From assembly GCA_902523535.1 (NCBI GenBank), contig CABYZQ010000003.1:83514-147513 (forward strand): a stretch of DNA of 64,000 bases. The letters are read 5' to 3'. Shown here piece by piece: positions 11,326-15,573 of the stretch. Source of the DNA: an uncultured Pelagibacteraceae bacterium (GTDB lineage: Bacteria; Pseudomonadota; Alphaproteobacteria; Pelagibacterales; AG-422-B15). The notes beneath the pieces were generated by a model. The model did no database searches, was not told where the DNA came from, and worked only from the letters and a program-made list of their open reading frames with translations. Position 1 is the first letter of the stretch; every line of letters begins with the position of its first letter. A program made the position numbers and the translations under genes.

Positions 11326-12153
11326 ATGAAACGTAAATCTGTAATTGATATCAAAAACCAAAAGGGAAAAACTCCAATTGTTTGCTTGACGGCGTACACC
11401 TCACCGATTGCAAGATCTATTGATGGCTGCGGTGATCTTTTATTAGTAGGCGACTCACTCGGAATGGTTCTGTATGACTATCAAAATACATTGCCAGTAA
11501 CACTCTTTCAAATGATAGAGCATTCAAAATCTGTTGTTAATGTAACAAAACAGTCGTGCGTTATAGTTGATATGCCTTTCGGCACTTATGAAGAGTCTGT
11601 TGGCAAAGCTTTTATGAATGCTGCAAAAGTAATGAAGGAAACAAACTGCAATGGAGTAAAGCTTGAGGGTGGAAGAAATATGTTTGAAACGGTAAAATAT
11701 TTAACTGATCGTTCAATTCCAGTAATGGGACATATTGGTCTTCAGCCTCAAAGTGTACTCATAGATGGTGGCTATAAAGTCAAAGGAAGAAATAAATTTG
11801 ATTGGGGTAAGTATATTGATGATGCAATTGCAATAGAAGAGGCTGGAGCATTTTCAGTAGTACTAGAAGGTATGGCTGAACCATTAGCTGCAGAGATTAC
11901 ATCTAGAATATCGATACCAACGATTGGCATAGGCGCCTCTCCTAATTGCGATGGCCAGGTGTTAGTAACAGAAGATATGTTAGGCTTAACTAACATTGCC
12001 CCCAAGTTTGTAAAAAAATATGCTGATTTAGAAAGCTTAATAAAAAAGGCAGCGCATCAATATGCTGACGAGGTGAGAAATAGAGAGTTTCCTGGTAAGG
12101 AGCATACTTATGCTATGAATCCTCAAATAGTTAGAAAAGGTGATGAAGATTAA
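11326..12153 (+). CDS. panB: 3-methyl-2-oxobutanoate hydroxymethyltransferase
   Basis: VCLTAYTSPIARSID, LLVGDSLGMVLYDYQNTLPVT, GVKLEGG, PVMGHIGLQPQSV. Confidence 0.96.
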   Translation: MKRKSVIDIKNQKGKTPIVCLTAYTSPIARSIDGCGDLLLVGDSLGMVLYDYQNTLPVTLFQMIEHSKSVVNVTKQSCVIVDMPFGTYEESVGKAFMNAAKVMKETNCNGVKLEGGRNMFETVKYLTDRSIPVMGHIGLQPQSVLIDGGYKVKGRNKFDWGKYIDDAIAIEEAGAFSVVLEGMAEPLAAEITSRISIPTIGIGASPNCDGQVLVTEDMLGLTNIAPKFVKKYADLESLIKKAAHQYADEVRNREFPGKEHTYAMNPQIVRKGDED

Positions 12154-12785
12154 TGTCAGATATTTTAAGGCAAGTTGATGAAGAATTGAGACATGATCGT
12201 CTAATGAATTTGTGGAGACGTTACCGTATATATTTAATTGGTGGACTAATTTTATTAATTGGTTCGGTACTTGGTTATCAAATTAACAAGTCGATAAATC
12301 AGTCATTTTATGAGGAAGAAGTAGAGAAATATATTGGCACTTCAGATTTAGTGGATTTTAATCAAACGATTGAAAACCTAGGTGAAATTGAAAATTCAAA
12401 TCAATTACTTATTTCAGGTATTGCACAAATTAAAATTGCAACTCTATTAATGGAAAATGGAAAAATACAAGAAAGTAAAGACAAGCTTTTAGAAATAATT
12501 AATGAAGATAAAACAGACGACATCATAACTGACCTGGCTATCTATTTTTATTTAATGAGTAATTTAAATGACATGGCGATGAATGAAATAAATATATATA
12601 TTGACAGTGGCAAATTAGAAAATAGTTCTTTTAAATTTCTTTTTAAAGAAATTATTGCTATTAAAAATTTATTAGTAGGCAAAATTCAAATATCTAAAGA
12701 AAAATTTGAAGAACTAATTAATGATGAAAATACTCCAAGAGATATTGTTATTAGGGCAACTAAATTTTTAGACACAATTAAATAG
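12153..12785 (+). CDS. YfgM-like tetratricopeptide repeat membrane protein
   Basis: Single TM after a basic N-terminus (LMNLWRRYRIYLIGGLILLIGSVLGY) and TPR-like remainder; directly upstream of bamB. Confidence 0.7.
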   Translation: MSDILRQVDEELRHDRLMNLWRRYRIYLIGGLILLIGSVLGYQINKSINQSFYEEEVEKYIGTSDLVDFNQTIENLGEIENSNQLLISGIAQIKIATLLMENGKIQESKDKLLEIINEDKTDDIITDLAIYFYLMSNLNDMAMNEINIYIDSGKLENSSFKFLFKEIIAIKNLLVGKIQISKEKFEELINDENTPRDIVIRATKFLDTIK

Positions 12786-12786
12786 T

Positions 12787-14085
12787 ATGATAAATATTTT
12801 ATATATTATTTTACTATCAACATTTGTAATATTTAGTTGTACAAAAAAAGAAATAATAGAGAAAGATTCTAATAGTTTTTCTATATTGGCGTATGATGCA
12901 GAAATTTCAGAAACATTAGGACTAAATATAGAAGATATAAGAATAGATCCTCCAAAGGAACTAAATTTTTGGTCGCAGCATTTTCAAAATCCAGGTAATA
13001 ATTTGAATAATATATTTTCCTTATCTGAAATTGAAGATAAGACAAAGATTATTTCTGGGACCAGAGGAGCTCTTAACATAATTCAGCCAATTTATTTTAA
13101 TGACACAATTTGCTACATTTTACCCAAGGGATTCTTAGAATGTCGAAATTTAGAAAGTAATGAAAAAATATTTTCAATTGATATAAAAGTTGATGGAAAT
13201 AAAAAGTATGAAGTTATAAGAGGAGGACTCGCTTATTTTGATAATAAAATAGTTCTAGTTGATGCCTATGGGCAGATTCTACTGATCGACTCTGATGATG
13301 GAAATAAAATATGGGGAAAAAAAATTGAATTTCCTATATTATCCCCACCACTAATTTATAGAAATCAAATTTTATTTATCTCGTCAGATAATAGATTATT
13401 TTCACTTTCATTAGAAACTGGCGATATAGAGTGGTCGTTTCAAACAATAGCTGAAGCTAAGAAAAGTCTTATTACAGCTTCCCCTATAGCTTTTGAAAAT
13501 ACAATCATAGCCCCTTTCAGTAATGGTGAGCTGGTTGCTTTTGATAACGATAGTGGTAGACCATTGTGGTCAGAAAATGTTTCAAAGGTTTCATTGCTTA
13601 GTAATTTTGACATCAAGGATATTTCTGCCAGTCCAGTATTATCAAATAACACAATTTTTTCTTTAAGTACAAATGGCAAATTGATATCAATAAATGCTAT
13701 TAATGGAAAAAGGAATTGGGCAATTGATTTATCAGGTTACAGAACTCCAACTATTTCAGGAGGTCAAATATACGTTATTGATGAAGACGGAAAACTTATT
13801 TGTTTAAATAAAAATACTGGTGAAGTATTTTGGATTACAGAACTCAATAAATTTAAAAAAGGTCAAAAAGCAAAGGATCTAAATTTGTGGCTAGGTCCTT
13901 ATTTAATAAATAGTTTATTATATAATATTTCTTATTTTGGCGAATTAAAGATTGTATCACCAATTACAGGAGAAGTATTGTCGACTAATAGTTTAGGAGT
14001 TAAAGGTATTATATTGCCGCCAGTTATATTAAGTAATGCAATATTTATGACGGATGAAAATTCCAATGTCTTCTATTTTGAATAA
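12787..14085 (+). CDS. bamB: Outer membrane assembly lipoprotein BamB-like (PQQ beta-propeller)
   Basis: Lipobox FVIFSC, PQQ-type repeats (GNKIWGKKIEFPI, TGDIEWSFQT, NGKRNWAIDLSG, TGEVFWITEL). Confidence 0.85.
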   Translation: MINILYIILLSTFVIFSCTKKEIIEKDSNSFSILAYDAEISETLGLNIEDIRIDPPKELNFWSQHFQNPGNNLNNIFSLSEIEDKTKIISGTRGALNIIQPIYFNDTICYILPKGFLECRNLESNEKIFSIDIKVDGNKKYEVIRGGLAYFDNKIVLVDAYGQILLIDSDDGNKIWGKKIEFPILSPPLIYRNQILFISSDNRLFSLSLETGDIEWSFQTIAEAKKSLITASPIAFENTIIAPFSNGELVAFDNDSGRPLWSENVSKVSLLSNFDIKDISASPVLSNNTIFSLSTNGKLISINAINGKRNWAIDLSGYRTPTISGGQIYVIDEDGKLICLNKNTGEVFWITELNKFKKGQKAKDLNLWLGPYLINSLLYNISYFGELKIVSPITGEVLSTNSLGVKGIILPPVILSNAIFMTDENSNVFYFE

Positions 14086-14887
14086 AATAAATTTCTGTAT
14101 TATTGGTAAGCCAAATTCTGGCAAATCAACTTTATTTAACTGTTTACTTGAAGACAACATTTCCCCAGTTGGTGACGAATACGGTCTTACAAAGAATTTG
14201 TTAAAAGATAAATTTACGATGTATAGTCACGATTTTATAATTTTTGATACTCCTGGTCTAAGACGAAAAAGTAAGATAGACGATCTGGATGAAAAGAAAA
14301 GAAACAAGGAGGTTATAAAACTTGTCGACAAGGTTGATACAGTAATTCTACTCATAGACTCTGTTGAAAATATTACCAAACAAGACTTTAGGCTGGCTGA
14401 TTTGGCAATAACAAAAAAGAAGATACTATTTTTCTTGTTCAATAAGATTGATCTAGTTGAAGAAGGAAAAAAATTTAAAAATAAAATAGATAAATATTTA
14501 AGCAATAATTACAGTCAATATCAAATGATTAATACTGATTTTATTTCTGCGAAGAAAAACATTAGAATTAAGAATTTCATAAAACAAATTATTAACAAGA
14601 ATAAACTTGCTAACACTGAAATTACAAAAGTAAATTTAAATAAATTCCTTAATTATTTAAATAAACAATCAAAATATCCAAAAATTAAAAAAAGAGAAAT
14701 TAAACCAAAGTATATTGTACAAATAAAGACTGGCTCTCCACTCTTTAAAGTCTTTATTAATTCAAAAAAGAAAGCGCCTCTAATATTTCAAAGATTTTTT
14801 GATAATGCTTTTAGAGATTTTTTTAAAATAAAAGGAGTGCCAATTTCATATCAGTTTATTAGTTCTAGCAACCCATATTCAGACTAA
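14054..14887 (+). CDS. der: Der/EngA-like GTPase with a single G domain plus C-terminal KH-like domain
   Basis: G1 GKPNSGKST, G3 DTPGLRRKSKI (Der GD2-like), G4 NKID, KH-like C-terminus ending SSNPYSD (cf. ENPY in Der). 277 aa; no second G domain. Confidence 0.85.
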   Translation: MKIPMSSILNKINFCIIGKPNSGKSTLFNCLLEDNISPVGDEYGLTKNLLKDKFTMYSHDFIIFDTPGLRRKSKIDDLDEKKRNKEVIKLVDKVDTVILLIDSVENITKQDFRLADLAITKKKILFFLFNKIDLVEEGKKFKNKIDKYLSNNYSQYQMINTDFISAKKNIRIKNFIKQIINKNKLANTEITKVNLNKFLNYLNKQSKYPKIKKREIKPKYIVQIKTGSPLFKVFINSKKKAPLIFQRFFDNAFRDFFKIKGVPISYQFISSSNPYSD

Positions 14888-15573
14888 AGCTTAATAATCT
14901 CACCGCTTTTTTCATTTGATAGCAAGAATTTTACAATCGCACTTGCAACGTCGGCTGGATCTTTTATTTGCTTTTTATTCTCACCGGGCATGATATTTTC
15001 TCTAAATTTAGTATTTACTGCACCTGGATAGATAATATTAGCATTTATAGAGTTGCCTTTATTCTCATTAGCGAAACTTAAGACTAGTTCATTTAATGCT
15101 GTCATGATTGGTTGATATATACCCCAATATTGGGATTTCATTTGAGTTTTTATTGAAGAAATAATAACAAAGTTAGATTTTTTAGAATTTTTCAGTAAAG
15201 GATGAAAATGTTTCATAATTCTAAAATTAGAAATATAGTTTAAATTGATAGTGTCATTTAATTCATTTAAATCAATTGACTCTACAGGAGATAGCTTAGT
15301 AATTTGGCCTGCCGATGATACAATAATATCTAAAAACCTATCTTTTTTAAATATTTCTTCAGAAAGATTTTCTATTACATTAGGCTTACATAAATCAATT
15401 GGAACAATTGTACATTCACACCCATTTGAAATTATTTTATCATTTATCTCTTCTAATTTAGATGCATTACGTGACAGAATATATATGTGTTTAACTGTCT
15501 TTGATAACTCCTGAGCAATACTTGCTCCAATTCCAGATGAGGCGCCTGTAATTAGACAATTTAGATTTCTCAT
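14884..15573 (-). CDS. Short-chain dehydrogenase/reductase
   Basis: CLITGASSGIGASIAQEL; SSAGQ; Rossmann-fold SDR layout. Confidence 0.85.
   Translation of the reverse strand: MRNLNCLITGASSGIGASIAQELSKTVKHIYILSRNASKLEEINDKIISNGCECTIVPIDLCKPNVIENLSEEIFKKDRFLDIIVSSAGQITKLSPVESIDLNELNDTINLNYISNFRIMKHFHPLLKNSKKSNFVIISSIKTQMKSQYWGIYQPIMTALNELVLSFANENKGNSINANIIYPGAVNTKFRENIMPGENKKQIKDPADVASAIVKFLLSNEKSGEIIKL

Follow-up and report, generated by a model that had tools for sequence, protein, structure and literature searches.

Der (EngA; YphC in Bacillus subtilis) is described as a unique family of tandem GTPases, generally conserved across bacteria. These proteins of 440–500 aa contain two G domains (GD1 and GD2), an inter-domain linker and a KH-like domain. 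In E. coli both G domains matter. The same is true for B. subtilis, whose isolated GD2-KH fragment is similar to the intact enzyme in its binding of GDP and GTP analogues and hydrolyzes GTP ~150-fold more slowly than GD1, in a reaction stimulated by K+ (PMC3466195). In E. coli Der bound to the 50S subunit, GD2 occupies the P-site space, with KH pointing to the PTC and GD1 situated close to the L1 stalk (PMC13278734, citing Zhang 2014). Era, another ribosome assembly factor, combines a TEES-type G domain with a C-terminal KH-type domain in about 280–300 aa. According to a 2025 survey of ribosome biogenesis factors, der is lost in CPR bacteria, whereas der and era are highly conserved in symbionts and parasites; SAR11 is not mentioned there (PMC12641178). 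No description of a one-G-domain Der, or of Der or Era loss in SAR11, was found in the literature searched (subscription papers were outside its scope).

The stretch of DNA analyzed here (the window, 64,000 nucleotides) belongs to an uncultured SAR11 bacterium (Pelagibacterales), the genome of which (1.17 Mb, 25 contigs) is 84% complete. It encodes a Der without GD1, hereafter half-Der, in the following surroundings.

11326..12153, + strand: panB, ketopantoate hydroxymethyltransferase (Pfam family PF02548)
12153..12785, + strand: yfgM-like TPR/membrane protein (no Pfam match; named from its position and alphaproteobacterial relatives)
12787..14085, + strand: bamB (PQQ_2 beta-propeller lipoprotein), ancestral upstream neighbor of der, overlapping its start
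14054..14887, + strand: der without GD1, encoding a GD2-KH protein of 277 aa from the called start or 273 aa from the conserved ATG at 14066
14105..14131, + strand: G1/P-loop GKPNSGKST (residues 18–26), including Asn; read from the sequence, present in 44/44 SAR11 half-Ders
14246..14257, + strand: G3 DTPG (residues 65–68), followed by GD2-type LRRKSK; read from the sequence, log-odds GD2-like
14441..14452, + strand: G4 NKID (residues 130–133); read from the sequence, present in 44/44 SAR11 half-Ders
14624..14857, + strand: KH-like domain of EngA (PF14714, residues 191–268; Pfam)
14884..15573, − strand: short-chain dehydrogenase (SDR), convergent downstream neighbor in family f1

Domain content and reading frame

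The product was described in the first-pass annotation as a Der/EngA-like GTPase with a single G domain, and profile searches bear this out. Pfam detects one MMR_HSR1 domain (residues 14–131, 1.1e-19) and one KH_dom-like domain (PF14714, 1.6e-13, above the curated cut-off) in the 277-aa protein; with only one MMR_HSR1 stretch, the two-tandem-G-domain criterion of Der is not met. The Der model TIGR03594 aligns over positions 175–431 of 432, GD2-KH being complete and GD1 missing, and the score of 195 bits fails the curated full-length cut-off (306.7 bits). Half-Der is thus a Der orthologue by descent, not a standard member of TIGR03594. The motifs read in the first pass (GKPNSGKST, DTPG, NKID and the NPYSD tail) are all present, together with G2 (T46) and G5 (SAK). 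In SAR11 half-Ders, G1–G4 and the NP[YF] tail are conserved in 44/44 sequences and G5 in 43/44. The P-loop Asn is the residue that serves as K+ ligand in Der/MnmE-type GTPases. Thus, half-Der shares with Der the GD2 and KH-like order, all G motifs, the NPY tail and the locus after bamB, and differs in lacking GD1 and the linker (about 275 aa).

Der proteins come first in a phmmer search against solved structures (B. subtilis, 3e-45, aligned to chain residues 195–449). The predicted fold (pLDDT 81, pTM 0.82), a check proposed together with the annotation, is closest to ribosome-bound B. subtilis Der (9bsl and 9bs0, TM 0.81 and 0.80), the free bacterial Der crystals being lower (TM 0.67–0.75). 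The TM to the E. coli Der–50S model 3j8g is only 0.71, which counts against the explanation preferred below.

The open reading frame extends from ATG 14054 to the stop at 14887, and the bamB stop at 14085 leaves a 32-base overlap of the bamB 3' end with the start of der. The nearest in-frame stop, a TGA within bamB, is located six bases upstream of the ATG, at 14048; therefore, there is no room for GD1 at this locus, as had been claimed. The annotated frame is confirmed. The start needs revision, since in an alignment of 17 relatives Met5 (ATG 14066) is invariant and Met1 is not, so that translation probably begins at 14066 and yields 273 aa. Purifying selection is evident from a median dN/dS of 0.067 among 14 close relatives (0.069 for the G domain and 0.035 for KH), with strong constraint on both domains and most of all on KH.

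Distribution of Der in SAR11 and history of the locus

A search of the genome for a second full-length Der or a separate GD1 had been suggested as a check. The nine MMR_HSR1 matches of the source genome correspond, by HMM register and frame length, to YchF, MnmE (an MnmE-length frame lies at G000:C7), half-Der, Era, ObgE and translation factors, and no second Der or separate GD1 is among them. Because the 84% completeness of this genome is a weak point, closed genomes were examined. Four closed SAR11 genomes with half-Der (G036, G039, G040 and G157; single contigs, 99–100% complete) contain one GD1-less Der each and no further frame resembling Der or GD1. Genome lengths are 1,160,202 bp (G040), 1,308,759 bp (G041), 1,343,202 bp (G048), 1,284,727 bp (G157), 1,237,371 bp (G039) and 1,410,127 bp (G226). 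A separate GD1 gene was rejected for eight closed SAR11 genomes, in which the MMR_HSR1 matches fit the frame lengths and registers of ObgE, MnmE, YchF, Era, Der, IF-2, LepA/BipA, EF-Tu or EF-G (ObgE, MnmE, YchF and Era were read directly for some, the others being judged by length). Weak frames of 214–267 aa in Pelagibacter-type genomes were likewise rejected as GD1; these are LptB-like ABC ATPases and guanylate kinase.

Among named relatives, the nearest (86–94% identical) come from single-cell genomes of SAR11, such as AG-337-J23, AG-333-L20 and SAG-MED32, and none of 59 relatives reaches the full-length Der cut-off. The survey of related lineages gives a wider distribution than first claimed. 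The Der KH domain was detected in 51/197 genomes of Pelagibacterales, representing 7/10 genera, and none of these Ders is full-length. The same gene of about 270–290 aa is found in every Der-bearing SAR11 genome whose frame is not cut, closed single-contig ones included; intact frames in the order have 269–289 aa, and four shorter ones (131–158 aa) are cut or broken. The sampled genomes of the Pelagibacter-type genera g3 (taken as Pelagibacter), g6 and g10 contain no Der KH domain. A diverged Der missed by PF14714 could be dismissed as well: with a SAR11 half-Der profile, the best matches in 26/26 genomes of g3, g6 and g10 are MnmE-length frames (443–465 aa), and no match covers the KH region (MnmE and other GTPases only).

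Outside the order, the Der KH search matches 224/240 genomes of the class, with frames of at least 442 aa among the matches listed, and 168/170 genomes of the phylum, with frames of at least 380 aa among the matches listed. Sixteen odd genomes of the class were rescanned, and wherever a Der locus is present its frame is at least 425 aa long. Among the matches listed, almost all other Pseudomonadota thus have a full-length Der, and an occasional short one outside the order remains possible. The loss of GD1 is, on the evidence of this distribution, inferred to be order-wide and ancestral in SAR11.

Some single cases were observed along the way. Five near-complete non-SAR11 Alphaproteobacteria (G324, G369, G374, G383 and G409) have no PF14714 match, and their best Der-model matches are Era-like in length and register; these may be further Der losses or assembly gaps. 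In family f50, two Der frames reach 592 and 682 aa, apparently through insertions (L127 and L130; G244 and G368). A SAR11-type half-Der (58% identical) is located at L071:3702-4532 on a contig labelled as Flavobacteriales MAG RS431, which is probably misbinned.

The position after panB-yfgM-bamB had been taken as support for orthology with der, and gene order in relatives strengthens this. Outgroup Alphaproteobacteria (loci L175, L177, L178, L179 and L180) have the order (panB)-yfgM-bamB-der with a full-length der; SAR11 family f1, including the window, has panB-yfgM-bamB-der(half)-SDR, and genera g2, g4 and g5 of family f2 have panB-yfgM-bamB-der(half)-purF. By synteny, half-Der occupies the ancestral der locus. 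In g6 (G054) der is gone, and bamB and purF stand tail to tail; in g3 bamB is found between acnA-yfgM and a cupin-like gene with zapE. At the Pelagibacter-type loci L104, L106, L108, L109 and L110, yfgM-bamB has moved from panB to behind an aconitase-like gene, with the cupin-like gene and zapE downstream.

In the tree of GD2 and KH, all half-Ders fall on one side of one branch (SH-aLRT 99), which is consistent with a single origin; it is support and not proof, because the branches are long and the composition is biased. It is likely that GD1 was lost in the common ancestor and the whole gene was lost afterwards in the g3/g6/g10 branch. Half-Der is a real gene, present order-wide and under selection, and SAR11 apparently lost Der in two steps, of which half-Der represents the first.

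Function of half-Der and alternative explanations

Half-Der is most likely the sole der orthologue of the SAR11 cell, cut to GD2-KH when the ancestor of the order lost GD1, and still a late 50S-assembly GTPase (probability about 0.78). Domain content, orthology, the lack of another Der, the order-wide distribution, purifying selection and the matching absence of Era are shown by the analysis; binding to the 50S, the site of action and the GTPase cycle are inferred. As in Der, the remnant would use KH and GD2 to contact the immature 50S on its PTC/P-site face, and half-Der does keep this P-site/PTC portion of Der together with the P-loop Asn. A single, intrinsically slow GTP cycle would govern binding and release, and the L1-stalk docking and fast GTPase of GD1 would be dispensed with. 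Such a slow single-switch factor could check or hold the P-site/PTC region in late 50S maturation without engaging the L1 stalk. In Pelagibacter-type genera, which lost Era, the remnant would then have been deleted, the G domains passing from two to one to none. That ribosome assembly works without GD1, as the annotation had reasoned, follows for the organism; the biochemistry of half-Der remains inferential.

The origin of the protein could be read otherwise. An assembly or gene-calling artefact of the single-cell genome, imaginable for 25 contigs at 84% completeness, is practically ruled out by the same gene in the four closed single-contig genomes. It is very improbable that the protein stems from a different GTPase of the TrmE-Era-EngA type, such as an Era paralogue with an acquired KH domain. 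The G-domain tree leaves room for it, since half-Der G domains separate from both GD1 and GD2 with the nearest neighbor unresolved; however, the HMM scores are 195 bits (Der), 80 bits (Era) and 75 bits (MnmE), the KH domain is the EngA-specific PF14714, the gene stands in the der position after bamB, and a separate Era, with a different KH family and HMM, is encoded in the same genome, as in other half-Der SAR11 genomes. Membership in Era (TIGR00436, 59.7 bits, cut-off 116) and in MnmE (75 bits, cut-off 252.6, G-domain part only of a whole-protein model in which the G domain is inserted in a helical domain) was rejected; HMM, fold and synteny all place the protein in Der. Two findings had been named as refuting the annotation, a canonical Der elsewhere in the genome and HMM evidence for a different family; both were looked for, and neither was obtained. 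The claim that the G domain is most like GD2 is upheld overall: log-odds against GD1 and GD2 profiles favor GD2 by 50–166 bits in 44/44 sequences, as decided by the switch II, QD and G4 regions. It does not extend to the first ~30 columns, which are ambiguous, slightly GD1-leaning in family f2 and GD2-leaning in family f1. These columns and the unresolved tree would be explained by a deletion recombining the two P-loop repeats (neither demonstrated nor ruled out), giving a chimera with a GD1 entry sequence and a GD2 body whose function would otherwise be that proposed above. The start of the frame 8–22 residues before G1, as in Der before GD1, fits this origin; the GD2 leaning of f1 over the same columns does not, and the region is too short for testing, so that the chimera is kept as a possible but rather unlikely origin.

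Since both G domains matter in E. coli and B. subtilis, the task of half-Der may differ from that of Der. The complete loss of Der in sister genera means that its function is dispensable in SAR11 cells, which counts against a role in 50S assembly. GD2-KH could instead have given up 50S assembly and been repurposed as a nucleotide-dependent RNA- or ribosome-binding protein (e.g., a factor in quality control or anti-association), which would have allowed its later loss; the low intrinsic GTPase of B. subtilis GD2-KH would agree with this (PMC3466195). This is considered unlikely, less so than an artefact or a non-Der identity and more so than the chimera, because both domains, and above all KH, are strongly constrained, all G motifs are retained and the locus is unchanged. 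Under the preferred reading, retained 50S assembly, this natural and conserved GD2-KH form, the only Der of the cell and not a laboratory fragment as in B. subtilis, separates the roles of the two halves of Der, the P-site/PTC half being kept and the L1-stalk half not, and bears on the need for two G domains. Both states are available in culture, half-Der in Fonsibacter LSUCC0530 and its absence in HTCC1062-type Pelagibacter, and the question is directly testable.

Era, EngB and other assembly GTPases in SAR11

Der, Era and EngB are generally held to be essential in model bacteria. Era scores above the cut-off in 47/117 SAR11 genomes (40 in f1, 7 in f2), and all seven f2 genomes bearing it belong to the Der-bearing genera g2, g4 and g5. 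None of the 57 f2 genomes from g3, g6 and g10 (94–100% complete; e.g., G037, G041, G048 and G054) has it. Der and Era are missing from the same SAR11 genera. EngB (YihA/YsxC) is encoded by 5/5 outgroup Alphaproteobacteria and was detected in none of the 10 SAR11 genomes tested, the source genome included; ObgE is retained in SAR11.

A stepwise dismantling of the ribosome-assembly GTPases is highly probable, EngB and GD1 of Der being lost in the SAR11 stem and Der and Era afterwards in Pelagibacter-type genera, so that the most abundant cells of the ocean would assemble both subunits without Der, Era and EngB. The set of assembly enzymes that free-living cells need for making ribosomes is evidently smaller than previously supposed. 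CPR bacteria, also with small genomes, have lost der and era too, as whole genes (PMC12641178); SAR11 is free-living, and a one-domain intermediate survives in it. Such loss is thus not peculiar to CPR.

The HIMB59-sized genome G226 encodes a two-domain, very divergent Der of 425 aa after yfgM-bamB (L181:547-1824, − strand; KH only 6e-4) and also EngB. The loss seen in SAR11 may thus mark this group, in agreement with the proposed exclusion of HIMB59 from it.
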